The notes beneath the pieces are model-generated. The model had not been told where the DNA came from. It saw only the letters and a program-made list of their open reading frames with translations, and searched no databases. The translations under genes were made by a program, and so were the position numbers. Positions 11,801 through 59,787 of a stretch of DNA of 64,000 nt are shown one piece after another; positions within the stretch are counted from its first letter, which is position 1; each line of letters starts with the position of its first letter. The DNA comes from Chloranthus sessilifolius (taxonomy: Eukaryota > Streptophyta > Magnoliopsida > Chloranthales > Chloranthaceae), in contig CM037596.1 in NCBI GenBank assembly GCA_021018995.1, positions 89,969,184 through 90,033,183 of the forward strand. Direction: 5' to 3'.

Positions 11801-14800
11801 ATGTTGGAATGAGACGGCAAGAGGAGCTGCATGCCATTACTGTTGCGAAGCGAGGTACTTGTGCAAGGCATGTAAGAGTGAAGCTTGAGCAGACCAAGCA
11901 AGGCACGGATGTGGAAGTGAGCGTGTTATAAGGGACATGATGTGTCGGTATGGTAGGCCTCGAAAGAAGGTAACCATGGGTGAGGAGTTCCCGTCCTCTA
12001 TGCAGGTGGTATCAGAGCTGATGGAGAGATAGGTTGACTTCGTTGCACGTGACAAGCGAGGCACCGCTCGGGTATAATGGCGCGTCGGGGAGCGCCCCCA
12101 TGACAGTTGGTATCAGAGACAGGCTGGCCTAGCTTGGGAAGTTAAGCGCCGCACACAAGGGCACATCGAAAGGAGTAACTCCATCCAGCTCGTGGCCACG
12201 AGGTCCCAGTTCGTGGCCAAGAGATTACACCTGAAAGTTTATGCAGTGCATTCATGCATTCGTTTTCTTACTTCAATTTCTACTTTTATCCGTCCCTCTC
12301 AAGACGTTGACTTTTAAACTCCGTCCCTCTCAAGACATTAGGTCTAATGCGTCCTTGTTCATTGTTCGTTAGACTCCGTCCCTCTCAAGACGTTGGGTCT
12401 AATCAAGCTTATTATTTAATGTTCTTTAGACTTCGTCCCTCTCAAGACGTTGGGTCTAATCATGCTTATTATTCAATGTTTGTTAGACTCCGTCCCTCTC
12501 AAGACGTTGGGTCTAATCAAACACGATCATTGCTTAACATTTTTACCATTTTCTTATAACTTCCATCATTCAAAATCTTATATCATCATAAGATTCAAAA
12601 AGAAAGTATAAGATATACAATATGGTGAACATTCATAGCATACACTAATTCTAACCGTAAACTTTCATCCATTATGCAATAACACATTATTTGAAATAGA
12701 AAACACATTTAATTCAGAAATTAAATTCTAAAGGACAAAATGATTTCTCCATACCTCGATTGATTGTAAAAGTGTATTCTTTGAGTCTCAATCGATTTTC
12801 CTCACCACGATGATGAATCTATATGGATGAGAATATCACTTGAGAACTCAATGTCGATGGTCTTACCATTCTTCCAAAAGGAAAAGCTCTAGAAAAGTAG
12901 ATCTAGAATTCCTTCTCTTAAGGTCTCTAGGTTTCTTACGGAAAGAATTATCTATTCTTAAAAAGACTCTAATGAGATTATGATTTAGGTTTTCTCCGTA
13001 ATGCTCTTTTTAACTCTTAACTTATTAGGGAATTATCCGGCTTTAAGATAATACACCAAAGAAGAATGCTTAAGCTTTTAAATCGCAGTCCAAAATAAAT
13101 GCTCAAAACTTACATACCAATGTTCGAACCTCTGACCTCTTGTCTCTAAATCAAGCCTCTAACCAGTAGGCTACCACATACCTTGTGTCAATTAATTGTA
13201 GGAATAAATATAAGGGTTTAAAAGCAAAACATGTATTTTTAATTAAAACATTTGGAAATTGAAAGCATGTGGGAGATGCACTATTAGGCATATACACAGT
13301 AATAAGGTGTATCAACGCAATAAAATTTAGATCATTACAAACTAAGGTGGCGATTTTCGTAGGCTATGCAGAAGGTGTAAAAGGATACATGTTATGGTGT
13401 CCTGAACAAAACAAGGTTGTGCTCAGCAGAGATGTGACGTTTGATGAGTGACGGGGACGCCGATATTATAGACACTGGATACGGACCGTTTCGCGTATAC
13501 CGACATCGGAAGAAGCAGAATGGAGCGTAAAGAAGAAGAAAAGAAGAATTTGCGCATCTCGATCAATCGAATCCCTGATTCGATCGATCGAAGCCCTATT
13601 TCGATTGATCAATCAGCAGCGGCGAGAAAAGGATTCAACTCTGGCGTATAAATATATATAATTCGATCAATCGATTTAAATTCGAGTACACATTTCGATC
13701 TAAAGATTTAATTTCGATCGATTGATTATCACCGTTGATAGATATATAAGTCGATCGATCGAAATAAGGCTTCGATCGATCGATTGAATTTCGATCGATC
13801 GAGTGTCACTTTCGATCGATCAAAATCACGCAAGAATGAATTTTTTTAGAATCCGAACTTAAGTTTTAGAGGCAAATTTGTCTTTCTATTATGCTTATTT
13901 TCGTTTTAGTTATTTTAAAACCTCCTATATAAGGTCTCTCCATAAACAATGTAATTAGTTTTTTTATTAATGAAAAAAGAGCTTTTGCTTCCTTGCTTGA
14001 GATGAGCAGTTTCGGAGAGTGAATCTTCGTGTCTCGAGAAGGGTTTGGTGTGAAGCCAATGGTGTGAAGCCCAAAATCTATCTTCTTTCTATCCCTTTCT
14101 TTAATTTTATCTTTTGCTTGCATATCAATCATCAACACCCTAGATTCTGCCAGAAAACCATAAAACCTAGTTTCCATCAGAGCCATCGATTCAAACCCAT
14201 CTCACAAGTCCTAAATCAAGCCATCCGACCAGAAACGCCCCGATATTCAAAACCCCAGAGAAAACCAACGATCCCATTATTGAACTACGAGCGCCCTAAT
14301 CTGAAAACCTAGAGTTCTACCTCTAGGACCGATCCACACCACAAATCTAACGAATCTAGCGCAAAGGCTGGACCCTTTCCTGAGCCCGAAAGTGATCTTT
14401 CGTCTGAAAAACAATGAAGCCCTAAGGTAAACGTGTTATTTTCAGGTTATTGTTCGAATTAATTTAATTTAATTTCAGCAATTAATTAATTCATCACATT
14501 CACATAGTCTCGAGTCTTGTCCTGCGTCAATGAGTCTACTATTCGAACTTCTAGCAAGCAAAGTATGAGAATTGGAGAGGTGACGGAAGATTAGTTTGAG
14601 GTGGAGTTAAAAACTCCTACTGAAGTTACACCATAAAGAGGTGTACAAATCCCAAGTGTAGAAACAGTTGAAAGAGAGTCAGAGCAATCCTTAATGGGTG
14701 GAAAACTCAAAAGGAACACTAGAGCACCGGTTCGTCATGGTTACGAGGATATGGTCGCCTACAAGTTGACGTTGGATGGTAATGAGCTGTCTTTATTCAA

Positions 14801-19862: not shown

Positions 19863-19867
<5 letters not shown>

Positions 19868-25373: not shown

Positions 25374-26048
25374 TGTTAGGAATTCTATCCACACTACGAA
25401 CTCCCTATCGTGATGAATGCGGATAAATAAGAAGATTCAAGCAAAAACAATCACGCATACAACACAAAGATTTACGTAGTTCACCCAATCGAGGGCTACA
25501 ACCACGGAAGTATATGCACTATTTTATGAACGTTTACAATGCACACACGCTCTTCTCTTTAGTGCACTGTCAATCAAGATCAAACACAATCTTACACAGC
25601 TAACACACTTTAAAAACAAGGACGCAGTCCTTCAAATAACAGAGAAGAGATCTGTTGGAATATATAACGATTCCGATATAAGAACGGCTTCAATCGGATC
25701 TTCAATCCCTAAACTTTTCATTAATACTTTTTCTCTCAAAGTATTCTCACCAGTTTTCTCTCATAAAAAACTTTCTCTAACAATGCATGGAACCCCTAGA
25801 GAAACCTTTTACAAATAGGCTCCAACCCTTTTGAAAACTTCACCAAAGAAATCTTCTAAACTTGTCAAGTATTCAAAACACTTCTCCTAAAAAGCCCCAA
25901 ACCACATTAGAAAAAATTTGGCTAAAGCAATCTTTCAAAATAGCCAAATATTCAAACCTACGAATCTGGATCCGCCCAGACGTCAATCGATTGATTTCTC
26001 AAACTCAATCGAATGACACCTATGGTTGGGATTAAACCTTATTCAACA
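25374..26048 (-). repeat. Copia B LTR 1 (3' LTR of unit 1)
   Basis: 675 bp, plus-strand ends TGTTAGGAATTC..TTATTCAACA, highly similar to LTR 2 and LTR 3. On the minus strand a purine-rich CCTTGGTGGAGAT precedes it, as expected for a 3' LTR. Contains palindrome TCAATCGATTGA at 25983. Confidence 0.9.
25982..26018. repeat. Palindrome pair in copia B LTR 1
   Basis: TCAATCGATTGA (perfect 12-bp palindrome), then 14 bp later ACTCAATCGAATGACA, a decayed second copy. LTR 2 (30737-30775) and LTR 3 (49887-49921) carry the same pair. Confidence 0.88.
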
Positions 26049-30130: not shown

Positions 30131-30803
30131 TGTTAGAAATTTTACCCACACTACAAACTCCCTATCATGATGAATGCAGATAAATCAGAAGATTCAAGCA
30201 AAAATAATCACACACATAACACAAAGATTTACATGGTTCACCTAATCGAGGGCTACGTCCCCGGGAGTATATGCACTATTTATAAACGTTTACAATACGC
30301 ACACTCTCTTCTCTATAGTGCACTCTTAATCAAGATCAAACACGATCTTACACAGCCAACACGCTGTAAAAACAAGGACACAGTCCTTCAAATAATAGAG
30401 AAGAGATCTGCCAGAATATATAACAATTCCGACACAAGAACAACTTCAATCGAATCTTCAATCCCTAAGCTTTTCTTCAATACTTTTTCTCTCAAAGTAT
30501 TCTCACCAGTTTTCTCTCATGAAAAACTTTCTCTAACAATGCATGGAACCCCTAGAGAAACCTTCTACAAATAGGCTCCAACCCTTTTGAAAACTTGACC
30601 AAAGAAATCTTCTAAACTTGTCAAGTATTCAAAATACACCTCCTAAAAAGCTCGAAACCACATTAGGAAAATATGGCTAAAGTAGTCTTTCAAAATAGCT
30701 AAATATTTAAACCTACGGATCTAGATCCGCCTAGACGTCAATCGATTGATTTCTCAAACTCAATCGGTTGACACTTGTGGTTGGGATTAAACCTTATTAA
30801 AAA
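30131..30803 (-). repeat. Copia B LTR 2 (shared by units 1 and 2)
   Basis: 673 bp, TGTTAGAAATTT..TTATTAAAAA. On its left the minus-strand primer site TGGTATCAAAGC (30129-30118) serves unit 1. On its right the purine-rich tract of unit 2 abuts it. One LTR therefore serves as 5' LTR of unit 1 and 3' LTR of unit 2. Confidence 0.9.
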
Positions 30804-40022: not shown

Positions 40023-40257
40023 AGTTGTGACAAGCAGTCCAACGTTTTCTCACTAAATTTTTTTTTTATCCTTGACCGCTACTCTCTAATTGCAACATGA
40101 AATCCACAAAAAAAAAACATCAGCAATCCTAAGCAGATTAGAAACACACTTTTTCATTGAGAAACACAGTGATTACAAGGACACTTTTAATTGTACTCCT
40201 AAACAACCTAAACTGAACAAAGAAAAATAAACTAATCCTAAACCTAAACTAAACAAA

Positions 40258-41379
40258 CTAATCATCCCCCTCCTCTTCGGCCTGACGGGCCCTGGCAGGC
40301 ATTTCATCATAACTATCAGGCCACATGCGCTGCCCGATCTGATGGAGGAAGGAACGATCATAGTGGCTTCGACGCAAAGTCGCACTATGTTGTCGCTGTT
40401 GCTCCTCTATTAAGGAATTGATTTGGGCTTGGAGTATATCAATGGACACACCCTCATCGGGTCCCTGATCAAAAGTCTTGGTGGGTTGTCCCTGGCATCT
40501 GTGGACAATGGCGTGGTGGAGCGAGTTGGGCGGTGCATCGTGGGCATCAGGACATTACCAGAGGCGACATCATGCGGTTCCATTGGGTCACACCATAGTG
40601 ATAGAATGCGAGTCCCCGAGATCGTCATCCCGGTAGAACGGAAAACGAAGAAAATTGAGCAGCTTCATTACCAAATGAGGAAAGTAGATCATAGCGGCAT
40701 CACCAGTGGCAGGGCTGGCGACATCCTCATGGCATCGCCACATGCCATCATGAAGAATCCCGGGCATGTTGATCCATGTATTTCAATAGGCACCATAGAG
40801 TGCCTTAACCCGATCACCAATGCGCTCAGAAACGTGGCCATGGGGGTAGAGGTTACTACTGACCACAATATCCCAAAATAAAATTGGATGCGGCAACGCC
40901 GATCGCCTAGTGGCGATCCCCGAAGAAAATACGCCACGACACATATCGTTAATTATATCTTTCTGAGAACTATTGAGCTCTTCACCCAGAGTGTGATTGA
41001 GAGGGCGCTCGCACGAAATGTAAAAAATCTCTGCGATGGTTTGCAGATAAATGCGGCGCGACCACCCATCGATTGAAATAGTAAAATGGGTCTCGACATG
41101 ATGTTCAGCGGAGGCATCCATCCATGTCATGTTTTGATAGAATAACCGAACGATCCGTTCGGGCACTTTGATCACGGGCGGTGTGAGAAGGAAATGGACG
41201 TTAAGAGCCATTGCATAAGCAATGGAGATGGCGCAGACTGGCATGGTCTGAAATGCCGCAAGATCGAAAAGATATTTAGAAGAAAGATCTCGGAATGCGA
41301 AGCAACCATGTGGCTGCTCACGTGGATGACCTGCAGGACGTTGGGAAAGCCGTTGTGGCGCAGAAGATGACGAAGCCAA
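40258..41379 (-). pseudogene. Gypsy A accessory ORF after pol (plant retrotransposon accessory protein)
   Basis: The ATG at 41379 opens a 198-codon frame. An S/P/R-rich head is followed by KYLFDLAAFQTM, IKVPERIVRLFYQNMTWMDA, FTISIDGWSRRIYL and PILFWDIVVSSNLYPHGH, ending ERIGDRVKALYGAY-stop. The same frame continues past that stop (NMPGILHDGMW...FPHLVMKLLNFL) to about 40573. The tail (40449-40258, another frame) has IDILQAQINSLIEEQQRQ, a likely coiled coil. It lies in the sense strand where Athila elements carry their env-like ORF. I see no signal peptide or membrane segment. It resembles the ORF at 54895-53476 of gypsy B (VRLFYQN, NLYP, ALY.A). I recall similar proteins as putative plant transposon protein; function unknown. 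Confidence 0.72.
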
Positions 41380-41504
41380 GAAAGCACTGTCGGAATGTCG
41401 GGGATTGTCAGGGAAAAGACAAGATCAAGATCGAATGAAAGGGAAGAGAGAGTGCTTCTCTTAAGTCAACGCGAAGGTGTCCTTTCTGGATAGTCGCACC
41501 GTAT

Positions 41505-41980
41505 ATAGTCGATTAAGCGACCTTATAGGGTCGATTAATCGACTTCAGTATGAAAAGGCACGGTTTTAACTACATCGCATGGAAACTCGCAATGGCTTCG
41601 AATGAAAAGATGCAACGGCCGGAAATAGAAAAGTCGATTAATCGACACTCGAAGTCGATGCATCGACTCTAATCGAGGCAGTGAAAAAAAAAATGCATGC
41701 ACATAATTTAAGTCGATTCATCTACTCCCAGAGTCGATGAAACGACTCCATTAAAAACAACCTGACAGAATCTGAAAAGGCAGCACGGTCTTCAACACTG
41801 ATTAGTCGATCCATCGACTTTGTAAGTCGATTAATCGACTTGCATAAAAGTAAGCCATCAATAAATGCAGACTGCCTCGAAAAAGGGCCACTCATTATTA
41901 CTGTCGATTAATCGACTTGAAGTGGTCGATTAATCGAGGGGAAGGGTCGATTAATCGACCTCCATTGTCGATTAATCGAG
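41505..41980. repeat. Main palindrome cluster, gypsy A pol to ORF spacer
   Basis: At least twelve sites in 475 bp, mostly GTCGATTAATCGAC or GTCGATTAATCGAG, plus GTCGATGCATCGAC and decayed forms (GTCGATTAAGCGAC, GTCGATTCATCTAC, GTCGATGAAACGAC, GTCGATCCATCGAC). Four TCGATTAATCGA sites are crowded in 41903-41976. Spacer sequence between sites is unrelated. Confidence 0.93.
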
Positions 41981-42171
41981 AAAGAGTGATTTTTTTATTT
42001 TTTTTTTAAAGACGAAATATAAAGAGAAATCAAACAAAATTGGGTTGCCTCCCAATGAGCGCTAGTTTAATGTCGATAGCTTGACCATATGAATTGCTCA
42101 GTCAAGGTGAGCCATTGGATCACCCAAGGAAAGAGTGTCAGAGAATGCCATTACATCCTCGAGGAAAGGTT

Positions 42172-43533
42172 TTAATCTTTGACCATTAAGTCGAAATAAT
42201 TCTCGTGTCTTTGATTGATAACATCAACTGCCCCATTGGGGAGTATTCGAGAGATTTTGAATAGACCACTCCAACGGGTTTTTAGTTTCCATGGAAATAG
42301 GTAAAGTCGGGAATTATATAGTAGAACCTGTTGACCAATGACGAAAGATTTACGTAAAATAGATTGATCATGAACCCGTTTCATACGATCCTTGTACGAT
42401 TTAGCACAGTCATATGCATAAGCACAGATTTCTTCCAATTCATTTATTTGCAAACCCCTCTGGGTACCAGATTTCAGGAGATCGAAATTCAATGACTTAA
42501 TGGCCTAAAATGCTCGATGTTTCAGTTCAACCAGGAGGTGACAACCTTTACCAAAGACCAACTGATAAGGCGACATGCCAATCGGAGTTTTAAACACAGT
42601 TCGATACGCCCACAGAGCGTCGCTCAGTTTTAGCGACCATTCCCTACGGTGCGGATGGATTATTTTCTCTAAAATCCGCTTTAGTTCCCGATTAGATACT
42701 TCAACTTGGTCACTTGTCTGAGGATGATATGGTGTAGCAACTTTGGGTGTGACACCATATTTCTTCATTAATTGGGTGAACACTTTATTGCAAAAGTGCT
42801 TTCCACCATCGTTGATTATTACCTTTGGAATACCAAAACATGAAAACACTTAATCCTTCAGGAATTTGATTACTACTTTATGATCATTCATTTTACACGC
42901 CACAGCCTCAACCCATTTCAAGACATAATCAACCCCGACAAGGACGAACGTATTTCCAAACGAATTCGGGAAAGGACCCATAAAATCGATCCCCCAAACA
43001 TTAAACAATTCAACTTTTAAAATTGGATTGAGCGACATCATGTTGCGCTTTGAGATCCGGCCTAGCATTTGACAGTTGTGACAAGATTTGCAATGCTAAT
43101 GATAATTTTTAAAGATCGTCGGCCAGTAAAAACCACTTTGGAGGATCTTTGCTGCAGTCTTCTTGGAACTAAAGTGACCTGCAAAAGCTAACTCATGACA
43201 GAACGAGATGATCCGTTGTTGCTCAGATTCAGGAATACACCGTCGTATGATTTGATCGGGACAGTATTTGAATAAATACGGATCTTCGAAAAAGTAGTGT
43301 TTCACTCGAGCTATGAAAATAGATTTCTCATTCTTAGACCAATGGTGAAGTAATTGCTCTGTGACTAGGTAATTTACAAGATCCGCATACCAAGGTGGGC
43401 AGTCAATCTCGAACAACTGTTCATCTGGGAAGTGCTCCAAGATCTGAACAAGATCGTTAGATTTCTCAATAATTATTCGTGACAAGTGATCTGCCACCAC
43501 ATTTTCTGATCCTTTCTTGTCTTTGATTTCCAA
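42172..43533 (-). pseudogene. Gypsy A integrase
   Basis: The zinc-binding part (HELAFAGHFSSKKTAAKILQ, 43533-43096) is followed by a core with all three acidic positions. Asp is in [15 protein letters not shown] (43068-42850), Asp in [14 protein letters not shown] and Glu in [15 protein letters not shown] (42849-42505). The C-terminal part FKISRILPNGAVDVIN (42492-42172) has no chromodomain. Single frameshifts or stops separate the four frames. Confidence 0.9.
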
Positions 43534-44066
43534 ATCAAACTCTTACAACAACAAGATTCATCTGATTAAGCGTGCTTTAGCATCTTTCTTAGTGAATAGA
43601 TAATGCAGGGCAGTGTGATTTGTAAATACCATGACTTTAAACCCTAATAAATAGGATCAAAATTTATCCAACGTGAAAACTACTGCCAACAGTTTCTTTT
43701 CGATTGTCGAGTAGTTTAACTGGGCATCGTTGAGAGTACGACTCGCATAGTAGATTACATGCGGTAATTTTTCTATTCGTTGTCCCAGAACAGCTCCAAT
43801 TGTATAATCAGAGGTGTCGCACATGATTTTGAACAGGAAATCCCAATTCGGAGATTGAATTATTATGGCTTTTATCAATTCAGCCTTAATGGTTTCGAAG
43901 GCTTACAAACATTTATCGTCAAAGAGGAATGGGACATCCTTTGAAAGTAAGTTGCATAGCGGTCGCGCTATCTTGTTAAAATCTTTAATAAAATGCCGAT
44001 AAAAATCGGCGTGTCCTAGAAAAGATCTTATTTCCTTAACTGTCCTTGGTGGTGGTAGATTGGCAA
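43534..44066 (-). pseudogene. Gypsy A RNase H
   Basis: SPNWDFLFKIMCDTSDYTIG with AVLGQR, then VIYYASRTLNDAQLNYSTIE and KKLLAVVFTLDKF (43878-43657), typical Ty3/gypsy RNase H. Upstream 44145-43903 carries the RT thumb to RNase H link (IRSFLGHADFYRHFIKDFNK). Confidence 0.9.
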
Positions 44067-45002
44067 TTAAATCAACTTTAGCCTTATCGACCTCGATACG
44101 CTGGGACGATATGATGTGTCCCAAAACAATGTCATCTTTAACCATGAAGTGATATTTTCCCAGTTATGAACAAGGTTCTCCTGACATCGTGCAAGCAATA
44201 GCGACAAATGATTCAAGCAGTCGGCGAAACTATTTCCATGGATCGAGAAGTCGTCCATGAAAACTTTGAGGAATCGTTTGACCATATCCGAAAAAATACT
44301 CATCATACATCTTTGGAATGTAGCTGGTGCATTACAAAGCCCAAACGACATTCGTCAATAGGAGAAAGTACCAAAAGGGCATGTGAGCGTAGTTTTCTCT
44401 TGATCCTTAGGTGTAATGACTATTTGGTTATAACCGAAATAACCATCGAGGAAGCAATAGTAATCATGCCCGGTCAGTCTTTCTAACATCTGATCGATAA
44501 ACGGAAGTGGAAAATGATCTTTCCTTGTCATGAAATTTAACTTCCGATAATCGATACACACTCTCCAACCTGTTTGAATTTTTGTAGGAATTAGTTCGTT
44601 GTCCTCATTCTTCACCACTATGACTCCCGACTTCTTGGGGACCACTTGTGTGGAGCTAACCCATTTACTGTCAGAGATGGGGTATATGACTCCAGTATCT
44701 AAATGTTTTATTACCTCATTTCGGACCACGCCTTGCATTATAGGGTTCAGTCTCCTCTGTGATTCCCTAGAAGGCTTAGCATTGTCTTCCAAATGGATCC
44801 GGTGTATACACACTGTCGGACTAATGCCTTTGATATCTTTTATCGACCATCCGATGGCACTTTTGTAATCTTTGAGCACATTCATGAGTTTACCTTCCTG
44901 ATTCGCATCCAATTTTGATGAGATTATGACGGGTTGAGTTTCATTCTCCCCTAAGTAGGCATACTTAAGATTTTTCGGAAGAGGTTTAAGTTCTAAGGAC
45001 AC
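44067..45002 (-). pseudogene. Gypsy A reverse transcriptase
   Basis: 45002-44355 encodes IGWSIKDIKGISPTVCIHRI, WRVCIDYRKLNFMTRKDHFP, LPFIDQMLERL and the palm start FLDGYFGYNQIVI; a frame change leads to 44351 MSFGLCNAPATFQRCM and VFMDDFSIHGNSF. The YxDD-type site (FMDD) is intact. Overlaps the protease frame by 10 bp. Confidence 0.92.
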
Positions 45003-46072
45003 TTCTTCTCCTCTTTCGGCTTTTCCTTGATTAATTCAATTTGAGCTTCAAAATTTATTTTCTTTTCTTCTCCCAGAAGCGGTGTGGAGTCCAACATGTG
45101 ATTCACTTCTTGGATCAGTTGATCCACATCAAAATTTTCTTCAAAATGCGCAAGACAGGCTGCTAAAGGATCTTTAATTTCGGATGCATGAAATATTTCT
45201 TCCACGATTTCATCGATTAGACAGGCTTGTGCATGTTCGTCATCCTCCATGGGTTGCTTGGCAATATTAAAGATGCTGAGTTCCAATGTCATATTCCTGA
45301 ATGACAGATTCATGATCCCGTTTTGACAATTGATTAGCACATTGGAGGTTGCTAGGAATGGTCTTCCTAGAATCACCGGAATGCTATTTTTTAAATTTGA
45401 TACCGGTTCAGTGTCTAAAATAATAAAATCTACAGAAAAGTAGAAAGAATCCACCTTGATGAGGACATCTTCCATAATCCCTCGAGGGATCTTTACTGAC
45501 CGATCAGCTAACTGAAGGGACATCGCAGTGGTCTTAAGCTCTCCCAATTCGAGCTCCTTGTAAACAGAGTAAGGCAACAAGTTGACACTTGCTCCTAAAT
45601 CCAAAAGGGCCTGATCAATACGATTATCGCCGATGATGATTGAGATTGTAGGACAACCTGGGTCCTTGTATTTAATTGGGAGTTTCGATTGCAACACTGA
45701 ACTAACCTGCTCGGCTAAGAAAGCCTTTTTTAGAATATTGGTCTTTCTTTTGATTGTGACCAATTCCTTCAAAATTTTTGCATAAGCAGGCACTTGTCGG
45801 ATGGCATCCAGGAAGGGAATATTAATTTTTAATTGCTTAAAAATCTCATTTATTCCTTTCACATCGCGATTTTTTCGTGGTGTCATCAATCTTTGCGGGT
45901 ATGGTGCTTTAGGAACAAAACTTTTCTTATATTCACTCTTTTCTTCTGTTATTTCTTTTGCTTGTACTTTTTCTTTAATTTCCTCTTTCTCTTTAAATTT
46001 TTTCTCTCCATCAGACTTCCCCTCCTCCTCTGGTAACACTACTTTGTTATTGACCTGCTTTCCAGATCTCAA
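44993..46072 (-). CDS. Gypsy A protease-containing ORF (359 codons)
   Basis: A Lys/Glu-rich linker (KEKEEIKEKVQAKEITEEKS) precedes a region with IPFLDAIRQVPAYAKILKEL, then aspartic protease IDQALLDLGASVNLLPYSVY (active site DLGAS), SVKIPRGIMEDVLIKVD and FIILDTEPV...IPVILGRPFLATSN. This arrangement is typical of Athila-type polyproteins. It is the longest intact frame of the window and ends four codons past the start of the RT frame. Confidence 0.9.
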   Translation of the reverse strand: MRSGKQVNNKVVLPEEEGKSDGEKKFKEKEEIKEKVQAKEITEEKSEYKKSFVPKAPYPQRLMTPRKNRDVKGINEIFKQLKINIPFLDAIRQVPAYAKILKELVTIKRKTNILKKAFLAEQVSSVLQSKLPIKYKDPGCPTISIIIGDNRIDQALLDLGASVNLLPYSVYKELELGELKTTAMSLQLADRSVKIPRGIMEDVLIKVDSFYFSVDFIILDTEPVSNLKNSIPVILGRPFLATSNVLINCQNGIMNLSFRNMTLELSIFNIAKQPMEDDEHAQACLIDEIVEEIFHASEIKDPLAACLAHFEENFDVDQLIQEVNHMLDSTPLLGEEKKINFEAQIELIKEKPKEEKKCP

Positions 46073-46599
46073 TATTATGATCGCCCGAATTTATTATTGA
46101 TTGTCATCTTGTGATGAAGTTGGTGTTTGTTCAATAACTATCTGACCCCTTGGGTTAGGGACTGATTGGCTAGGAAACGATCATTTTTCTCTTTCAAAGA
46201 GAAAAGTTGTCAATTGCCCAATTTGGGACTCTATTTTAGAGATTGAGGATGTGTGAGAATGAATAAGTTTCAACAGGTCCTCAGTAGGAGTTTGTGTAAG
46301 AGGACGTTAGGCAATATTTCCCAGTGGATTGTTAAATCTGGGTGGTGGAAGTGTTGGCACAAAATTTTGTTGTGGTTGGTTTTGATAACCTCCCATTAGT
46401 TGTGCAAACTAAAAATTCTGATTTAATTGTCGTGGTTGTCAAACCTGATTTTAATTGTATTGAAATTGATTTGGATTATTGAACCCTTGTTCTTGAAATA
46501 GTCCTTGACCATAGTTTTGCTGCGGTCCTTGGTTGAAATTTTGTTGGGGATAGAAGTTCATCCCCTATTTCCTAGGCTGTATTATTTGATTATCTTATT

Positions 46600-47735
46600 T
46601 TCACAAGAAATTTGGGTGGGTTCTCCAACTATTTGGGTTATTCTCATTGAAAACGTTTCCTTGATTCCGCCTATAGTTATTGACAACATTTAGCTGTTCA
46701 GATGTATCTTCATGGTAGTTCTGCATTAAAGGACAATCATCTGCTATATGCATTGGACTTGTACAAATTAAACATGGCTCGGGTTGTGTATCTATCATAT
46801 GCATATTCTTCTTTAATTTTAATTCCTCCACTTGTTGAGTGAGGAAATCAATTTTAGCCATCAGATCCGGAGAATCCTTTACTATGTATAGTCCTCTCTT
46901 CTTGGTTGAACTTCTGGCTTGATCACGAGCTTTGACTGGTTGTTCCCGAATCTTTGTGAAATCTCAGTACTGGGAATCCTCGGCCAGCTTTTCTAGGAAA
47001 GAATAAGATTCATTTTCCTTGAGACTCAGAAATCCTCCACCATTCATTGACTCCACCAGATGTCTATTTGGTAGACTTAGTCCATTGTAGAAACACTGGA
47101 CCAATCTCCACTTTGAGTATCCATTGTGTGGACATTTGAGTAGGAGATCCATGAATCTATCCCAAGCTTCATATAATCTCTCATCTTCCTCTTGCGTGAA
47201 ATCTGTGATTTCACGTCTGAGGGCATTCGTCTTCGCCATGGGGAAGAATTTTGACAGAAACTTTTTGACCATCTGATCCCAGGTGGTTATGGATCACGAT
47301 AGTAGAGAATTTAACCAGGCTTTTGCTTTATCCTTTATAGAGAAAGGAAACAAGCATAGCCTAAGAGATTTTTCACTGAAGTTTTAGTATACAGATGAGC
47401 AGACTTTGACGAAGTCTTTAACGTGCTGGTATGGATCTTCTCTCTCCATGCCATGAAAGATTGGAAGGATTTGGATGACATTTGTACGGATTTCAAATCG
47501 GCTGCCAGGTGTGGTGGGATATACAATGCATGATGGGGTATTTGTAGTGATTGGAGAAAAGAGTTCTTTCAATGTTGGTTCTTTCTCTTGTCCTTGTTTG
47601 ATTTGCCCATTCATGTTGTCAGTCATATTGACTTCAGTGGATGATTCACTTGAAAATTGTCGCCTTGATCTAGCGTCCTTACGATTTGACCGGCAAACAC
47701 GTTCGATCTCAGAATTTAAAGGCTCTAAAATTCTT
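46600..47735 (-). pseudogene. Gypsy A gag
   Basis: An open stretch from about 47735 reads ILEPLNSEIERVCRSNRK before the first ATG at 47626 (MTDNMNGQ), suggesting a lost start codon. Then SRFEIRTNVIQILPIFHGME (47560-47440), and retrotransposon gag proper KKFLSKFFPMAKTNALRREI and EAWDRFMDLLLKCPHNG (47272-46964). 46861-46601 has a zinc knuckle CLICTSPMHIADDC (CX2CX4HX4C). Three frame changes. Confidence 0.88.
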
Positions 47736-47850
47736 TATTTAGATGACCTAGTGTGCATGCAAATGACACACATAGTCGATGTTTCAGGGAAGAAAATCTC
47801 AAGATATATATATATATATATATATATATTATTTTTAGAAAAATTTTGAA

Positions 47851-47925
47851 TCTCGATTGATTAAGGAGCTCGATTAATCGAGACAGAAGTCGATTAATCG
47901 AGTGATAGGCTCGATTAATCGACAC
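47851..47925. repeat. Palindrome cluster in gypsy A 5' leader
   Basis: CTCGATTGATTAAG (decayed), CTCGATTAATCGAG, GTCGATTAATCGAG and CTCGATTAATCGAC lie between primer site and gag, next to a TA microsatellite (47805-47829). Confidence 0.92.
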
Positions 47926-48483
47926 AGGACAGAGAATTTTTATTTTTTTTTTAAATTTTTTATAGCAGAAATACTGTTTTAATCCCCAAAAATTCCTAAA
48001 ATTTACTGTCTATTTCCTAAAAATTCAGATTTTCTTGATCGTTGCTGCCAAAAACTTATTGTGATTTTTAATTGTGATATTTTATTCGCAAGCGCACGAA
48101 TCAGATTGTAGATAGTAGGCGCGGAGTACGAGATCGTTCCTACGAGGACTATTTTAGAAGATCTAAAAAGATGAAACAGTAACTCAAGAAATCTATCAAG
48201 ATTTAACAGTACCCTACCAATATTATGATTTAGGCAGTTTTATGATATGATAATTACTGACTACAAAATAAATTTAATTGATGATTCAAAAATAAAGGTA
48301 AAGATGAAGATACTAAATCCTCCCATCTTTGGTTTGTTCTTTTCATAATATAAATCTAAGGATTAAACTATGAGATATACCATTGAAAAACATCTTTTAT
48401 GGAAGATGAATGATCAAAACTCGAATAGGTTCCACATTGCATCCTTGCAATCAGAACATAATTTCAGAGATGAGTTCTATATA

Positions 48484-48625
48484 TAGATATGAGATCAAGG
48501 GCATGACTTGGCACACTTGATCTCAGATTACAAACAAAAATATCTCCAAAGTGGGTAAAAAATTCTAACAAGAATACCACCATAGATCTGAGATCAAGGG
48601 CATGACTTGGCACACTCGATCCCAG
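48484..48625. repeat. Two hairpin cassettes in gypsy A 5' LTR
   Basis: Copies at 48484-48529 and 48584-48625. The second joins the left flank and stem of cassette 2 of the other LTR to the right stem and flank of its cassette 4, as a recombination deletion would. Confidence 0.85.
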
Positions 48626-49134
48626 TTAGTGGCGGGGATTTCATCCGTTCATGATAGCATAACAACTATAAAACAAAATCTCAAAGTTTAATCTTAGATC
48701 TATACTATTAGAAGTACATCCCTCGGATGGGAATCATTAGATCCCCATCCTTAAGAAATTAGCCACACATGTTATAATTAAATGACATAAAAAAGTAATA
48801 AATAAAAAATAATATTTATCTAATTAATTAAAAGTACTTCAACCTTCAATAGCAATTCCTTGATCCAAGCTTAATCCACGAGTATAATAATCTTTAGAAA
48901 CGAACTTAAAAATACTCTCTATTAATCTCTAAATTTAACTAGGAATTAATTGAGCAAAAAAATAGAATTTTTGAAGAAAGGAATGCTAAAAAGGGAAAAG
49001 GAATAAAGCTCTCTAAAAATAAAAATCTCTATCTCTACATCTGTCTATCCGTCTATCTCCTCCCTCCTCTTGAGTTGTTGTTTTGGCTTTAAATACTCTC
49101 CAAGTCTCGCAGCTTTCCTATCTCGAACTGCCAG

Positions 49135-49262
49135 GGTCGATTAATCGACCTCATAGAGTCGATGCATCGACTCCCCTAAAAATATGCATTAAGAAGTCTT
49201 TTCCGTCTCAAACTCTATCCTTTACCTCGATTAATTGAGTGCAAGGTCGATGCATCGACCTT
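49135..49262. repeat. Palindrome cluster in gypsy A 5' LTR
   Basis: GGTCGATTAATCGACC, GAGTCGATGCATCGACTC, CTCGATTAATTGAG (still a perfect palindrome) and GGTCGATGCATCGACC. They correspond one to one with 36711-36835. Confidence 0.92.
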
Positions 49263-49650
49263 CCCAGATTTTCGTGAACTCCAGCCCAACTTTGTATCAG
49301 ACACTGCCTTGGTATTGTGGCCATAACGTTCTACTCCAAACTTGGATTGACATGATTCTTATGGCATTAGAAAGATGACAGAAAGCTCTACAACTTTTAT
49401 GTTTTAGTAATTCTACGAATCTGACTTTTTGAAGGTCCAAATTGAGCTGCAAGTTGTACTAAGTTCTCGACGACCCAAGATTGCAGTGTTTGATATTATT
49501 TTCAGAATTCTTGGGCTGTTTTATGCACTTGGATGGTATTTACCTGAAACACTTCAAATCTAATAATTCTCATTAGATAGCCTTTATCGGACGGCTAAAT
49601 GTAAGTATTTAGGGGTGAAGTATTACCATATTTCACTACTCGTCAGTATT

Positions 49651-49953
49651 CTCACCAATTTTCTCTCATGAAAAACTTTCTCTAACAATGCATGGAACCC
49701 CTAGAGAATCCTTCTGCAAATAGGCTCCAACCCTTTTGAAAACTTGACCAAAGAAATCTTCTAAACTCGTCAAGTATTCAAAACACTTCTCCTAAAAATC
49801 CCCAAACCACATTAGGAATATTTTGGCTAAAGCAATCTTTTAAAATAGCAAAATATTCAAACCTGCATATCTGAATCTACCCAGATGTCAATCGATTGAT
49901 TTCTTAAACTCAATCGATTCACACTTGTGATTGGGATTAAACCTTATTCAATA
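49651..49953 (-). repeat. Copia B LTR 3, right piece
   Basis: After the duplicated GTATT (49646-49650) the LTR resumes CTCACCAATTTTCTCTCATG and runs to TTATTCAATA. With the left piece it gives about 670 bp, the length of LTRs 1 and 2. Confidence 0.9.
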
Positions 49954-50606: not shown

Positions 50607-53003
50607 TGTGACAGCCCAGATTTCGGCTCTCCGAAACTCATGCCATCAGCACGACCCTCGAGGTCATGCCCCATATGCCTGCATGAAATATTAGTATAAC
50701 CATGCAACAACAAAGTAAAATGAAGCATAAGAATTGAATCAAACTAAATCTCTAGTTTTATATATATAACCATCAAAATGAATAACCCAAAAGATAGTTC
50801 TAGTCTCATACCAACTCATGAGCAAAAGAACCCACCCGAACCATCAGTGACGAAATAACAGTCACCCTGGATGGTTCACCAAAAGAATATATTATTTGGT
50901 TAATTGCATTTTCTCAAAAATAGCTTGACATACCAAGCCATACAATGCTCTCTCAAAACTAAATCAAAGTACGTAGGGGTCCTTTAGAAGAAGTTCTCAG
51001 GAGGGGACTCCAAATCCTCCCCAGACAAATTCGAATCCTCCCGATCTATGCCTCCTGAAGTGGCAGTAGCCGCAAACACAGGACCTGTGACATATAGTCT
51101 AAAAGGGTGAGCTACATCATAGCTCAATAGGGAAATAACTAAATAAACATATAAGTTAATCTCTCACATATATTCCATGATATTTAGCAGCATAATGTAT
51201 CAATGAATTAACTGGAAAAGCAATTTAAATGACTGAAAAAGATGCACTTGGTGTTACTGTTACTTCACATATTTTATTTTTTCTCAACTTTCTTATGTCA
51301 GACAATGATTTAGCCTAAAGACTTAAATTATAACTTAAATATTCCCCGACTTACTATAGCGTTGGACACCTAATGGAATACCCTCCATTGTTGTCTAATT
51401 AGACAATTTTCATTTCCTTTTTCATTCTTTTGATACTACCCAGGTCCCTTTGTCATAGGCGGTAGGGTTTACTTCTCATACATACATACGTACATACGTT
51501 CCTGGGATGTGCAACTGGTGTACGGATTGGCCGCCGTACCGGTTACGGATATCCTACCGAGTTAGTCGTGGGTATCCCACCACGTCGGGGGGGTATTCTC
51601 CAAACCTTAAATATCAAAAGTGCACTATATATAGTTATTCACCGTGTGATTGTACTAAATATAGTAGATTAGGCGTTATCAATCTCATTCACTTTGCTTT
51701 ACATTTTCACATACATTCATGGGATGTTAAACTCAATGCATCACACAGATGCTCCTATACAGTCACATCCCCTAGGGACGTCACATACTTATTTACTTTA
51801 TTTTGTGTTCACACACACACACACACACACTTAAGATGTTACATTTTTGATGCATATATACTCATTTCTATATCACTACATACATGCTCTTGCTATTAAA
51901 ATACATGTTCAAGGCGTTCCTTACCTCACGTGTATAATTCCTCAAGTGTCAAGATCCAAGGCGTTTCCCATGCTTGCACTCACTCGTACAACCTATGGTA
52001 TACCATAGCATAAGCAAAGCATCAAGAAAGATGCACTGAAGAAGGTACAAGACCCTCCTAGAATCCCAAAGTCCAAAATAAAAGCCAACTGAAACTGTTC
52101 AAATTGATTGATCAATCTCCAAAATCGATCAATCAAATTTCCAAAATCAATTAATCGAAATTTCAAAATTGATTGATCGATTTCTCAAATCGATCAATTG
52201 GTTTTCCCCAGCTTTGATTTTCCAGCCACTAGGAGTGCTTAGACGATTAATCGATTTAAAATCAATTAATCAAAATCCATAAATTGATTGATCGATTTAA
52301 AATCGATTAATCAGTTTCAGGCATCTTTGCCCAGCTAACTTCCAGGCCAAAATCGATTGATCGATTTTCCAAATTGATCAATCTATTTGGTCAGAAACTC
52401 AGCCCTTTGCGGGCATTTCTTCTAGCTTTCTTCCTAACTATTTTCTTTTCTTTTCTACATTTTTAATTCGACATTTAACCAATCTATCCTAGAGCTAATG
52501 CACAACCACACATTCATTAAAAATCCAACAAAACTCACCTCAAACCAATCTCTTGATTGAATGAATGGTTGGGTTAAAGGCTAGGGCTCTTAGCTCCGAC
52601 TCTAATGAACTCTGATGCGTCGTCTCCGGAGTTAATGCTTGACCACGCCTTCCAATTCGAATCCACACTAACTCTCCTTAGCATTTACTCTCTCCTTTCC
52701 TCTAGACTCTCTCTCTCTCTCTCTCTTCATAAATCCCTAACCACCCAATAAAGAGAAATAACTTCTCTTTTATTCCTAAGGCTACTTAGTTCATTTCAGG
52801 TTTTTGGTGCCAAACACATACACTTATAACAGGTATGTGTGACTTAAAAGAAAGAATCCAACCCACACACACACACAAGTACATTCATATCAAACTTACT
52901 TAAATCTAAGTCATTAAGTTGACGTCTACTTGGTCAAGCTTGTGACCAGTCGGGCATGCTTCCCAAGGTCATCGTTCAAAGCCTAAATTTCGGGGATGTT
53001 ATA
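50607..53003 (-). repeat. Gypsy B 3' LTR (left)
   Basis: About 2.4 kb. On the minus strand it starts TATAACATCCCCGAAATTTA after purine-rich AAGGTGGGGAGAA and ends GGGCTGTCACA. Contains a CA microsatellite (51803-51829), a CT microsatellite (52705-52724) and a palindrome cluster (52100-52390). No ORF of note. Confidence 0.88.
52100..52390. repeat. Palindrome cluster in gypsy B LTR
   Basis: At least ten sites of the TTGATTGATCAA / AATCGATTGATCGATT type, for example AAATTGATTGATCAAT, AAATCGATCAATCAAA, AAATCGATTAATCAG and AAATCGATTGATCGATTT, some decayed. Confidence 0.88.
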
Positions 53004-53475: not shown

Positions 53476-54895
53476 CTACTGGGAATCAATGGGATACATG
53501 AACTGCATCGTCTGGTAGAGCAATGCCTCATGGAGGTCCAGTTGGTGGTCCATGTGCGTGTTGGTCACCTCCATACGATACTGATGCTCCAACATCTGAC
53601 GATTGTTCTCTGCCATGAGGGTGAGAACATCATCAATGGTACTCATCACAGGGGCAAGATGCCCGCCTCTGGTGAGCTCGTGCATAAGCAGTAGGAGTAG
53701 ACTATGCAGGAGCAGTAGGTGGTATTGAAGGATGCTCCTCAGGTGGTACTAGGTTATGAGGCTGCTCCCCCTTTGCGAGGTCCTGTGGCTGTACAACAGG
53801 CTGCTCCCCCTCTGCTGGCAGGTCCTGCTGTGGTGGTGCATCGCCAGCCTGAGTAGGTGCTGGCCCCTCAACTGACAGAGTCTTCACCAGCATCTTATAA
53901 CTGCGGCCCCATGAAACGATGGAATAATGCTTCACATGATTGTTGGCCTTGCGCTCGGCAGGAGAAATCTCATACTCTGGGGCATTAGAGTAGCACTCCA
54001 ACATGCTTGAAATCAGTCGAGCGTAGGGCATACGCTCCTTGGGTTTCAATGGGCCCTTCATAATTTTCCCTTTGATGTATACCATCCCCTCAAAGATAAT
54101 CTTGGTAGCGTCGAACCAACGGCCGTGGAATGCCGCGTATAGGGCCGATTGGACCAACTCTACCCTCTCTGTATTGTGGCACATAGGGTAAAGGTTACAC
54201 TTGATTATTGAATCAAGCATCCACATGTAAGGAAGTAAATCGACCCTTCGTATAGATTTTCCGGATCCCTTGTTTCCCCTCGTTAATTTCGTTCTAATTT
54301 CCTCATAATCGATGAGTTGTGGGAAGAGAGGAAAAAGATTGGTCTCGGGCACGTGGTCTAGGTAGCACTCCAAAGGCTCGTGGATATGGCGTCAGGTGAA
54401 TATGTACTTACGACCATCGATCTCAGTCGTATCAGTGTCGGCTATGCGACCCTTTTGTAGGTTTTGGTAAAATAATCGCACGAGTCTAGGGTAGTAGTAC
54501 TCATGCAACAATTTCAAAAGGTTACCAAGACTCACTTTTATAAGGTATTATCGAGCCCATTGGGTTTCACCCTCTATGTCGAAATAGGTAAATAAGGCCT
54601 CGTCAATAATGTACTTGTATTCAAACTATTTTGCTGCCCACCATTCATTTGGTTGGGGTAAATTTCTGGGTGGTGGGGTTGGGGGTGACGATTCGCGCGA
54701 TGACGCGTCTGTCAAGTGCAATGAACCCGATGAAGATGATGATGATGATGGTGAAGGTGAAGGTGGTGGTGGCGCGGCGTTCTTACACTGAACCGGTAGC
54801 TTGGAGGTAGCTTGCTTAGAAGCTAACCTAGTTTTAGGAGGCATTGTGGTTCTAAAATCAAGAAAACTCAAAAATCTAGGGTTGCAACAACTCAA
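53476..54895 (-). pseudogene. Gypsy B accessory ORF after pol
   Basis: An upstream frame also runs into ATG MPPKTRLASKQATS, then a P/S-rich stretch and NEWWAAK-stop (54844-54626). It continues through single stops: LLKLLHEYYYPRLVRLFYQN, TEIDGRKYIF, then the long frame 54373-53702 with RRVDLLPYMWMLDSIIKCNL, YPMCHNTERVELVQSALYAA and FHGRWFDATKIIFEGMVYIK. The tail is Pro/Gln/Glu-rich, ending near 53476 with EVTNTHMDHQLDLHEALL. Order and motifs (VRLFYQN, NLYP....ER, ALY.AF..W) match the gypsy A ORF at 41379-40258. The long frame suggests recent constraint or youth. Function unknown. Confidence 0.72.
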
Positions 54896-55094: not shown

Positions 55095-55320
55095 GGCAAA
55101 AATTGATTGATCAATTTTTACAACTTAACATCAGTTTCGCGAAATCGATTGATCGATTTTCAAAATCAATTAATCGATTCGAACTCGATTAATCAAAATT
55201 TTCTACTTTTTATTTCCAAGTTTTTCATCACACTGGCATGTGCCAGTCTTTCGATCGAACGAAATCGATTGATCGATTTCCAAAATCGATTAATCAATTT
55301 AGAAATCGATTAATTGGTTC
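55095..55320. repeat. Palindrome cluster, gypsy B pol to ORF spacer
   Basis: AAATTGATTGATCAATTTT, GAAATCGATTGATCGATTTT, AAAATCAATTAATCGATT, GAACTCGATTAATCAA, then GAAATCGATTGATCGATTTC, AAAATCGATTAATCAATTT and GAAATCGATTAATTGGTT. Confidence 0.9.
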
Positions 55321-57224: not shown

Positions 57225-59787
57225 TGTGATAGCCCAGATTTTTGCACCCAAAAATCTATGCCATCAGGATCATTCTCTAGATGATCCTCAGGACAAATCA
57301 CAGGGGGTCTGTTCGTCTAGCAGAAATCAAAGCAGACACGGTCCAGTAGTGACAGTTCGAGTCATCATATGTGGCGTTAAGAGAAAGAAGAAATAAACAT
57401 GCATGTATATATATATATATAGAAAGAATATACATTCTCAAAAAGGAATAAAGAAGAACCACTGGTAATGGACATCTATCACCCAAAATAATGGTTCCTA
57501 ATAGTGGTTCTTATAGAATATATAACAATATAAGAAACAACATCTATAGTATAAAATATAGAAAGTGGCCACCAGACCAAATAATCCAATATATGAATAC
57601 AGACCCAAAGAAAAATACAACTACGCACCCAAGCTGCTAATAAAACTCGTCAGCAAGGGTATCAGTGTTCTCCTCCTCTGCCTCAGCCTTTGCCTCAGGC
57701 TGGTAATCAGGGTCGCTCTCCGTGCCGGGAGCCCTAGCCTCAGTACCTATTAATATTATAGAAAACAGGGTGAGCTACATCTAAGCTCAGTAGAAGAAAC
57801 CTAATTAAACATGCATTGAAAATGTAAGACATGATTTACAGATTGTGTCTTAGAACAGATGATCAAATCAGAATATGCAGACAGGATAAATCAGATGGCA
57901 GGTACTGAGTTTCAAAGAAAAGAATAGATGCAAAATATTAATTTCAAAGTTTACTAGATGCCATGCATATCATAATTGGTGACTTAAATCATGCATATTT
58001 CTCTAACTTAAGTAACTCCCGTGAATATATAGCACATGGTAGCCAGATTTGGGCAGATGGGAACCCCTTCCATCGTCGTTCAATGAACAATTTCAGAATG
58101 TGCAACAATGCCTCATAGTAAGGAGCACAATTGTGCCAGGAGAATTTTCAAGCAGATGCACGGATATTCCGCCGTGCCGGACGTGGATATCCTGCCACGT
58201 CAGGGGAGTTCAATTGGTGAACTTAAATTAGAACAGATAACAGAGTACAGAAATCAGAGCAGATAGTAGAGTACAGAAATCAGAGCAGATGCTTATGTTT
58301 TATGCATACATGCTTTTCAAAATAGAAGTTAGGGTACAGATATGAAGGAATCATGAAATCATATTCAGATATATTTTCAAGTTGAATTTCCCTTACCTCA
58401 GATCAGACTTTTCTAAGCAAATCTAAACCTTTTTAAAGCATCAAGGTCTGATCCTCAACCATATACATAGCATACTTAGTGTCAGATATGTCCGGATATT
58501 AACTGGCACAGTGTCTAGTAGTGTTTTGTCCACGAAACTAAAATAATAGAAAACAGGAGTGATTGATAGATCAATGTCCTTGCTTGATCGATCAATCATT
58601 AATTTGAGCAATCAATTACCTTCCTTGATCGATCAATGTCTCCCTTTAACTCACAAGGAACTGAGGGAAATTGATCGATCAACACCCTTGCTTGATCGAT
58701 CAATCCACCTCATTGATTGATCAATCTTTCCATTGATCGATCAATCCTATCAAACTCAAATTTCCCTCCTCTTGTTTGCACACTTAACTTATAAAATTTT
58801 ATTGATCAATCTTCCTCATTGATCGATCATTCTTGCTTTTGATCGATCACTTCACTGTGATCGATCAACTTCTCATATTGATCGATCAATGCTAAATTTG
58901 ATCGATCAATGCCCATCGGCATTGAACTTCCAGAAAAGCACTCTACTGTTCTCATTAACTCTTTATACGAATTGATCGATCAACTCTCTACCTTGATCGA
59001 TCAATCCCAATCTTGATCAATCAATTAACTACCTTGATCGATCAATAATGACATTTTTCTGTCATTAATGGCGGTCACTTGTTCTTGACCTATTTTGACC
59101 TTAAACCATTAATGATCCCAACCCACACTCATACATATCCATTTACATATTTATGAGGTCTTAACCTCCATATTTTTAATCTAAAAACTCACCTATTTAA
59201 AGTCCCTTTTAGGATCTCGGTAATGCGATCCGAGGAGGGTTTCAGATTCCAAATCAGAGGTTTTGTCGCCATCACGACCTTGAATAACAGACTTGTGGCT
59301 TCGCTTTAACACGCAGTGACAGCACACGTTCCCAGACTAGACACGTACCGTCAAGATTGACCCCTTCACACTCTATTTTCGAGAATTTACCATTTAGGTA
59401 CTCTCGAGCCTTGGTTTCACAACCGCAATACTTCAGACCTAAATCCCTGCTACAGACCAATATGAAATCAAGAAGGAGAAGAGTGGAGAGGGATTCTACT
59501 TCTCTTCCTTCCCTTATAAGCTAACCAAAGAAATATCCTTGATATTTCTAATTTTCTAATATTACGTTTCGATGTTAAACGTACACTTAACTTCCCGACA
59601 TACCACACCTCATCACACATCTGATGCAACTTGGATTTTCGTAAGAAGTCACACATGACTTCGACTAATTGTGGATTAATATTATTGGCAATAATATTAT
59701 TATGAAATTTTAATTTATCTCGATTTCTATGTTCGACACACATATCAAAGCAGTCGGGTTCTTATTCAAAATTTTAGGGCTATTACA
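57225..59787 (-). mobile_element. Solo LTR, 2,563 bp, inside gypsy B RNase H
   Basis: TGTGATAGCCCAGATTTTTG..TTTTAGGGCTATTACA with 11-bp near-inverted ends and an exact 5-bp duplication CCATC (57220-57224 and 59788-59792). Its removal rejoins RNase H (RQYRQM | EFLNDYD). There is no internal coding sequence. It begins like the gypsy B LTR (TGTGAcAGCCCAGATTT) and is similar in size, so it comes from a related Tekay-like family. Confidence 0.9.
58560..59045. repeat. Palindrome cluster in solo LTR, TTGATCGATCAA type
   Basis: About twenty sites in 485 bp, most containing the perfect 12-bp palindrome TTGATCGATCAA, for example at 58676, 58734, 58863, 58898, 58975, 58996 and 59034. This is the densest cluster of the window. 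Spacers are 10-50 bp of CT-rich unrelated sequence. Confidence 0.94.

Follow-up and report, generated by a model that had tools for sequence, protein, structure and literature searches.

In a single 64,000-nt window of the Chloranthus sessilifolius genome (GCA_021018995.1, CM037596.1; the window is the whole stretch analysed, all counts refer to it, and positions are numbered from its first letter), we observed directly that symmetric 12-bp sites lie in regularly spaced arrays outside the tested coding pieces of long terminal repeat (LTR) retrotransposons, and that they come in element-specific variants. The window contains nested LTR elements with copia- and gypsy-type pol pieces, and the arrays are found in a solo LTR (C1), a copia element (copia B), an Athila-like gypsy element (gypsy A), a Tekay-like gypsy element (gypsy B) and a second solo LTR of Tekay type (S2); the names Athila and Tekay are presumptive, given from layout, polypurine-tract (PPT)- and primer-binding-site (PBS)-like sequence and C-terminal sequence. 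We propose that the arrays are probably cis-regulatory operators of these retrotransposons, bound by a dimeric protein. The original prediction, made from the letters of the window, had supposed a shared role or mechanism behind the clusters; our results support such a role in control regions, because the tested coding pieces are free of sites, the spacers are mostly unrelated, the same pair spacing recurs in five families and the arrays lie near presumed promoters and an accessory open reading frame (ORF). One host factor or mark common to all is the less likely form of it, because in each of the two elements with more than one array the palindrome variant is private to that element.

A palindrome family gathered in twelve arrays

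Sites were defined by TYRATNNATYRA, that is, by the form TYRAT-NN-ATYRA with CGAT or ATCG required inside. The clusters proved real: all five 12-mers first quoted for them were present (TCGATTAATCGA 14 times, TTGATCGATCAA 10, TCGATGCATCGA and TCGATCGATCGA 4 each, and TCAATCGATTGA 3), and zero-mismatch TYRATNNATYRA sites numbered 57 vs. 1.4 expected (40 shuffles, maximum 3), rising to 79 vs. 14.1 (40 shuffles) when up to one mismatch was allowed. Counting perfect 12-bp palindromes that use at least three letter types, we again saw an excess (68 vs. 17.0 ± 3.2 over 30 dinucleotide shuffles, none of which exceeded 24), and in the enrichment ranking the top four non-simple 6-mers (AATCGA, GATCGA, ATCGAT and ATCGAC) were all words of this palindrome family, built on TCGAT/ATCGA, as were the top nine 8-mers. 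The core, YRAT-NN-ATYR, is one that we take to resemble paired homeodomain sites; palindromes with an ATCGAT centre occur in legume retroelements.

A count of 12-mers made without any motif, over six regions, gave a perfect palindrome as the commonest word in the C1 LTR (TCGATCGATCGA, 4 copies), in the S2 LTR (TTGATCGATCAA, 10 copies) and in the Athila internal region taken with one LTR (TCGATTAATCGA, 13 copies); the top word of an array-free copia A stretch was non-palindromic, and no 12-mer was present three times in the Athila 3′ LTR alone. The second Athila LTR, being a duplicate, was omitted from this count and from the leave-one-array-out, family-spacing and phasing tests, and copia B entered neither this count nor the spacer (CpG and identity) counts.

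For spacing, 69 of the 79 sites were grouped in 12 arrays; the set excludes eight isolated sites (4423, 5145, 7522, 12756, 24401, 42073, 44235 and 61378) and two irregular sites inside arrays (52177 and 55251). The carriers and arrays are as follows, the arrays being given without strand.

13449..14529, plus strand: C1 solo LTR, ~1.1 kb, TG...CA, 5-bp duplication ATGAG (sequence, ends and duplication)
13559..13823: C1 array, nine sites, TCGATCGATCGA and variants, short gaps of 19-21 bp (site scan)
25983..26016: copia B pair 1, TCAATCGATTGA and a one-mismatch site at a distance of 22 bp, within the linker from the pol end to the 3′ LTR (LTR 25374-25745)
30738..30771: copia B pair 2, at the equivalent position relative to LTR 30131-30501 (site scan and self-comparison)
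49888..49921: copia B pair 3, within copia fragment 49645-50605, beyond the Athila-like insertion (site scan and self-comparison)
35438..49646, minus strand: Athila-like gypsy A, bounds approximate (self-comparison, Pfam matches, PPT- and PBS-like sequence)
36712..36833: Athila 3′ LTR array, pairs of TCGATTAATCGA and TCGATGCATCGA, spacing 22 and 20 bp (site scan)
39949..40017: three-site Athila array on the downstream side of the accessory ORF (site scan)
41509..41979: 12-site Athila array on the upstream side of the accessory ORF, most sites paired at 21-22 bp (site scan)
47853..47922: Athila 5′ leader array, four sites, on the gag side of the PBS-like sequence (site scan)
49137..49258: Athila 5′ LTR array, a copy of the 3′ LTR array (site scan)
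50607..53003, minus strand: gypsy B 3′ LTR, upper edge ~53003 inferred from PPT-like sequence (50607-51403 matches 63200-63997 at 90%)
52125..52364: gypsy B LTR array, eight AAATCGATTRATCGATTT-type sites, the overlapping site 52177 omitted (site scan)
55145..55317: gypsy B array on the upstream side of the accessory ORF, six counted sites and the irregular site 55251 (site scan)
57225..59787, minus strand: S2 solo Tekay-type LTR, TGTGATAGCCC...GGGCTATTACA, 5-bp duplication CCATC, nested in gypsy B pol (oriented by gypsy B LTR homology)
58584..59045: S2 array, 13 sites of TTGATCGATCAA, 10 of them exact (site scan)

Pair spacing, spacers and coding pieces

A conserved spacing and core, which the original prediction had proposed looking for, are both present: beside the YRAT-NN-ATYR core, 37 of the 57 gaps between successive sites of the 12 arrays measure 17-22 bp (mean 20.7, standard deviation 1.2), and over all 79 sites gaps of 17-23 bp numbered 36 vs. 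0.03 in shuffles. Mean close spacing by family was 20.6 bp in C1, 22.0 in copia B, 20.8 in Athila, 20.6 in gypsy B and 20.2 in S2. The sites had been described as no tandem-repeat units; a tandem-like unit spacing does exist, and what stands of that description is that the spacers are largely unrelated, gypsy B excepted. In C1, S2 and Athila, mean information per base was 1.55-1.73 bits inside sites, a value partly built in because the sites were picked by pattern, vs. 0.21 bits outside; and within seven arrays the 8-mers to the right of the sites agreed at 0.25-0.36, vs. 0.26 for random 8-mers.

The CpG observed/expected ratio was 1.05-2.86 in six arrays vs. 0.59-1.06 around them, and in several arrays this surplus belongs to the sites themselves. 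Spacers taken alone were CpG-poor in S2 (0.27), in the gypsy B LTR (0.0) and in the two Athila LTRs (0.54 and 0.60), as a constraint on the site itself would predict; the spacers of the large Athila array were intermediate (0.86).

No site, even at one mismatch, lies in the 15 Pfam-matched gag/pol pieces (8,070 bp, 40 bp of them counted twice), which cover only part of gag-pol. The original remark that no clusters were noticed in gag-pol stands for these pieces and is softened between them, where two isolated one-mismatch sites (44235 and 61378) fall, probably in pol, at a number close to the shuffle level.

Leaving out one array at a time among four Athila and two gypsy B arrays, we could assign all six to their own element when 1-2 flanking bases on each side were included; with no flanking bases added to the 12, four of the six were assigned correctly. 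We read this as element-specific motifs, in a comparison of just these two elements; the motif varies as a unit between them, as a matched site-protein pair would lead one to expect.

Placement of the arrays

The C1 LTR sits inside copia pol (flanking pieces at 9859-10365 and 14944-15279), and its array is followed by a TATA-like word. The Athila LTRs (~35438-37222 and 48056-49646; 92% identity over two aligned pieces) show the same order on the minus strand at a shorter distance, and the TATTTAA equivalent in the 5′ LTR lies at 49095, 42 bp from the array. The Athila-like element has Asp_protease_2 and Integrase_H2C2 matches above the Pfam cutoff and RVT_1 and rve matches below it, and carries 23 sites with one LTR counted. 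Its 12-site array is touched on its ORF-side edge by a TATATA word (41502-41507), and its array at 39949-40017 overlaps a predicted ORF of 157 amino acids (39580-40053, minus strand). In gypsy B, with 14 counted sites, the upper array lies between the pol end and the ORF at 53705-54841. Each accessory ORF, in Athila and in gypsy B, is thus flanked on both sides by arrays of its own element's palindrome.

13926..13932, plus strand: TATATAA word, starting 103 bp past the last C1 site (TATA-word scan)
36665..36671, minus strand: TATTTAA word, 41 bp beyond the edge of the Athila 3′ LTR array in the direction of transcription (TATA-word scan)
40786..41424, minus strand: Athila accessory ORF piece, between integrase and 3′ LTR (weak Transposase_32 likeness)
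53705..54841, minus strand: gypsy B accessory ORF, three in-frame stops overall, piece 53705-54391 open (Transposase_32 likeness)

Two parts of the original prediction needed revision here. The copia B clusters had been placed in LTRs; instead, each of the three copies has one pair, in the linker from the pol end to the 3′ LTR. And the clusters had been ascribed to four or more unrelated lineages; at most four are independent, because the gypsy B and S2 LTRs are related and bear their arrays at corresponding positions, with differing palindromes.

The repeat unit of copia B, LTR to LTR, is ~4.8 kb, and 25374-35437 together with 49645-50605 resembles a tandem array with common LTRs (LTR-internal-LTR-internal-LTR), the Athila-like element being inserted where the third copia B LTR meets its internal part.

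A proposed operator mechanism and the alternatives

The elementary unit is a two-fold symmetric site of 12 bp (up to ~18 bp in gypsy B) with a half-site of about YRAT/ATYR, set in homotypic clusters. What we infer from here on concerns protein binding, the dimeric state, the effect and the host or element origin of the binder: a dimeric protein would occupy each site, two dimers might co-operate on adjacent sites two helical turns (~21 bp) apart, and their binding could drive or license transcription at the LTR promoter and at the accessory ORF. This role in transcription is suggested because the arrays precede the presumed LTR promoter and the accessory ORF. The two-fold symmetry, the two-turn distance between neighbours, the position on the promoter and ORF sides and the change of the motif as a whole between elements speak for operators of a dimeric binder, as does the similar arrangement of the Sirevirus boxes described below. 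The sites may act as plain enhancer boxes, or they may keep the promoter free of DNA methylation, and the binder could be either a host transcription factor or the element's accessory protein.

Several observations weigh against this operator reading or narrow it. The longer gaps hold no helical phase (p = 0.38 at 10.5 bp and p = 0.53 at 20.75 bp, 19 gaps), therefore only nearest-neighbour spacing is fixed, and the sites form close pairs or short runs without any extended phased lattice; the copia B spacing counts as a single observation, one pair in three copies, because those copies are homologous. Gypsy B departs most from the pattern: the symmetry, foreseen as perfect or near-perfect and found so for the commonest 12-mers of C1, S2 and Athila, is imperfect in most of its 14 counted sites (centre TG or TA), its commonest 12-mer in the motif-free count is not perfectly palindromic, and its right-flank 8-mer identity reaches 0.46 and 0.51 in the two arrays, where the conserved site is longer and reaches outward to ~18 bp. 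Information outside sites is not near zero in gypsy B (0.70) and copia B (0.72), and spacer CpG is not depleted in C1 (1.41) or in the upper gypsy B array (1.74). TATA-like words make weak evidence, since they are common in the AT-rich DNA of the window: TATATAA also occurs within the C1 array at 13655 and 13743 (three in all on the C1 plus strand), past the array, the nearest such word on the minus strand is 265 bp away in the gypsy B LTR (51860) and 553 bp away in S2 (58031), and none of six TATA-like words was found in gypsy B 54700-55320, ahead of the accessory ORF. To these are added the folding and symmetry results that follow.

The same palindromes could act as hairpins in RNA or single-stranded DNA, adjacent sites pairing as a 12-bp stem with a ~9-nt loop, so that selection would be on a folded transcript (a packaging or dimerisation signal) or on small-RNA silencing. 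Each of the four arrays examined as RNA folded well beyond the shuffle level (z = -5.4, -13.9, -8.8 and -9.7), the sites occur mainly in close pairs with unphased longer gaps, close neighbours are identical in 11 of 35 cases, and self-symmetry was kept no better than neighbour-to-neighbour complementarity (24 pairs, p = 0.94), a test that does not separate dimer from hairpin. Yet a loop need not be fixed to 1-2 nt and the close gaps have a standard deviation of 1.2 bp, although tandem duplication would also give regular gaps; in three Athila pairs TTAA stands beside TGCA, each site being self-symmetric (one pair nearly so) and the cross pair losing 2-4 of 12 base pairs; and, should the TATA-like words mark promoters, the 5′ part of the transcript would lack the C1 and Athila LTR arrays, which its 3′ U3 part would still contain. 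Because of the narrow spacing, the differing symmetric centres (TTAA and TGCA) side by side and the arrays before TATA-like words, we prefer a reading at the level of DNA and regard hairpins as unlikely.

It is more doubtful still that the arrays are a functionless by-product of mutation, in which slippage or template switching multiplied a palindrome-bearing minisatellite unit of ~21 bp. Tandem duplication does leave regular spacing, gypsy B spacers retain an identity of 0.46-0.51, and the 3′ regions of Retand gypsy elements often hold family-specific tandem arrays of obscure role, at least in the portion of the source drawn on here (PMC11963269). However, neutral decay should strike site and spacer alike, and in C1, S2 and Athila the spacers are nearly random with the 12 bp almost unchanged; nor does such expansion explain why up to four lineages share one symmetric style and spacing, or why arrays occupy LTR, leader and pre-ORF positions within one element.

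Horizontal exchange of an array-plus-ORF module, which would make the likeness one of descent and not of convergence, is suggested by the related accessory ORFs of the Athila-like and Tekay-like elements with arrays on both sides and by the shared array position in the S2 and gypsy B LTRs, but is very improbable as a general account, for the palindrome cores differ, most spacers are near random, self-comparison of the window joined no arrays of different lineages (S2 vs. gypsy B being the only direct cross-alignment) and the translated copia B linker has by eye no Transposase_32-like ORF (no family search was made on it). The arrays as a whole, as originally supposed, are not one recently exchanged segment, because both cores and spacers differ between lineages; but with a related accessory ORF between arrays in both gypsy elements, exchange or common ancestry may apply to that module. 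C1, being a solo LTR, cannot show an accessory ORF.

Relation to known repeat arrays

The original prediction knew of no description of such clusters, which was too strong: palindromic CpG-bearing motifs before TATA and env were described in Sireviruses in 2010 (PMC2829016). As far as that paper is drawn on here, 13 Sirevirus Ty1/copia elements carry high-copy palindromic repeated motif (RM) boxes, at least eight copies per element, in clusters before TATA in the LTR and, where env is present, also upstream of env; TATA follows the CpG island by 37 bp on average; the RM core is CGG-CCG in 12 of 13, the exception being Tnd-1 with ACAATCGATTGT, an element having neither the Sirevirus TATA motif nor a CpG island; 30 classic copia elements were reported without RM boxes, and gypsy elements are not among the sets that these parts of the paper describe (Bousios 2010, PMC2829016).

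The arrays here resemble the RM boxes, as described there, in being palindromic, CpG-bearing and element-specific with divergent flanks and, in Athila and gypsy B only, in having a second cluster 5′ of an ORF in the env position (41509-41979 and 55145-55317, upstream of minus-strand ORFs at 41424 and 54841). For an LTR cluster shortly before TATA the picture is mixed, with TATA-like words 41-42 bp past the Athila LTR arrays (vs. 37 bp in Sireviruses) and 103 bp past the C1 array, and 265 and 553 bp away in the gypsy B LTR and S2. The copy number is also comparable in C1 (9), S2 (13), gypsy B (14) and Athila (23), whereas copia B falls short with two per copy; copia B has CAATCGATTG, ten bases, in common with the Tnd-1 word. 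They differ from the RM boxes of that account (PMC2829016) in their core, YRAT-NN-ATYR instead of CGG-CCG, in the fixed 21-bp pair spacing and the 5′ leader array, and in their carriers, which are Athila-like and Tekay-like gypsy elements, a classic-sized copia and an LTR (C1) with no lineage call, whereas Sireviruses are Ty1/copia elements of ~10.5 kb.

A second comparison is with VANC proteins, which, in the excerpts of the sources used, bind short repeated motifs in non-coding regions of VANDAL elements and remove methylation, VANC6 motifs occurring also in the unrelated element AT9TSD1 (PMC5735166, PMC10398659). Common to both systems are non-coding tandem motifs that differ between elements and an accessory protein encoded by the element, here a putative one; in contrast, VANDALs are DNA transposons whereas the carriers here have LTRs and retrotransposon gag/pol domains, the VANDAL motifs YAGTATTAY and AGTTGT[CA]C are non-palindromic, and binding and demethylation were demonstrated there whereas our arrays are known as sequence. 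The MAIN/MAIL1 plant-mobile-domain proteins with their 'DOWN' motif were followed as a lead and dropped, no tie to these palindromes being found in what the source offered (PMC7156037).

Among the literature matches listed, judged mostly by title or the start of the abstract, we found none that describes arrays of this kind in gypsy elements, and among 33 papers containing any of six exact palindrome words (24 of them TCGATCGATCGA) no title names retrotransposons. Palindromic boxes as such are already known; new here are the gypsy and classic-sized copia carriers, the 21-bp pair spacing, the YRAT core and the accessory ORF. If the arrays recur in gypsy elements, palindromic boxes would be a promoter layout general to plant LTR retrotransposons and not a Sirevirus oddity.

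Accessory ORFs

The gypsy B ORF, with X at its stops, matched Transposase_32 (PF20167, 'Putative plant transposon protein') with E = 1.4e-7 and 32.0 bits, its open piece alone with 14.6 bits, and the Athila ORF piece with E = 0.011 and 16.1 bits, all below the Pfam gathering score of 45 bits. The two ORFs are related to each other (27% identity, BLASTP E = 3e-10, a single comparison), and no relative was found at E ≤ 0.001 among 6,029 candidate proteins; the predicted structure of the ORF piece was poor (mean predicted local distance difference test score, pLDDT, 44.9 from a two-row alignment).

In the passages available of the respective papers, sunflower Athila elements have an ORF partly like Transposase_32 and the sunflower Tekay group an ORF of no known domain at the 5′ side (PMC11728184), Retand gypsy elements have in their 3′ region a TRP28 ORF with predicted DNA binding (PMC11963269), and a 2026 paper leaves as a question whether such ORFs shape methylation (PMC12844716). 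On those accounts, the ORFs here share their place between pol and the 3′ LTR with both sunflower Athila and Retand, the partial Transposase_32 resemblance with the former (PMC11728184) and the tandem arrays in the same 3′ region with the latter (PMC11963269); they differ in being sense to pol, whereas Retand ORFs are antisense, and in that our Tekay-like element has a 3′ Transposase_32-like ORF whereas the sunflower Tekay ORF is 5′. Palindromic arrays around the ORF were not found in the consulted descriptions of PMC11728184 and PMC11963269.

One speculative extension, which we put forward tentatively and think on balance not likely, is that at least two gypsy lineages license themselves: a nuclear dimer of the Transposase_32 kind would bind its own arrays, both at the LTR promoter and beside the gene that encodes it, and counter silencing, site and protein would co-evolve, leaving each family a private palindrome, and the system would be a counterpart of VANC/VANDAL reached independently. 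A private motif beside the accessory ORF also offers a direct handle on the role of that ORF, a standing question in the parts of the literature cited (PMC7264820, PMC11963269, PMC12844716).

Additional observations

Among viral contigs, paired TTGATCGATCAA sites were found in none and paired TCGATNNATCGA sites in six stretches, two of them mainly TCGA runs and four with 2-3 sites each. An AT-rich IMG/VR contig has, at 2686-2742, three TCGATGCATCGA sites 22-23 bp apart, which probably reflect chance or a phage operator; the same word is present in the Athila arrays.

At Rfam gathering scores the sole match in the window was a small nucleolar RNA (snoRNA), outside every array: snoR71, a plant C/D-box snoRNA, matched at full length at 47118-47224 (plus strand; 58 bits, E = 2.3e-9), antisense within the Athila-like element. 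Across the 20 ORF pieces scanned, the only clear Pfam match other than to retroelements was an ankyrin-repeat ORF at 18566-18970 (minus strand), and AT microsatellites abound close by, at 19798-20867.

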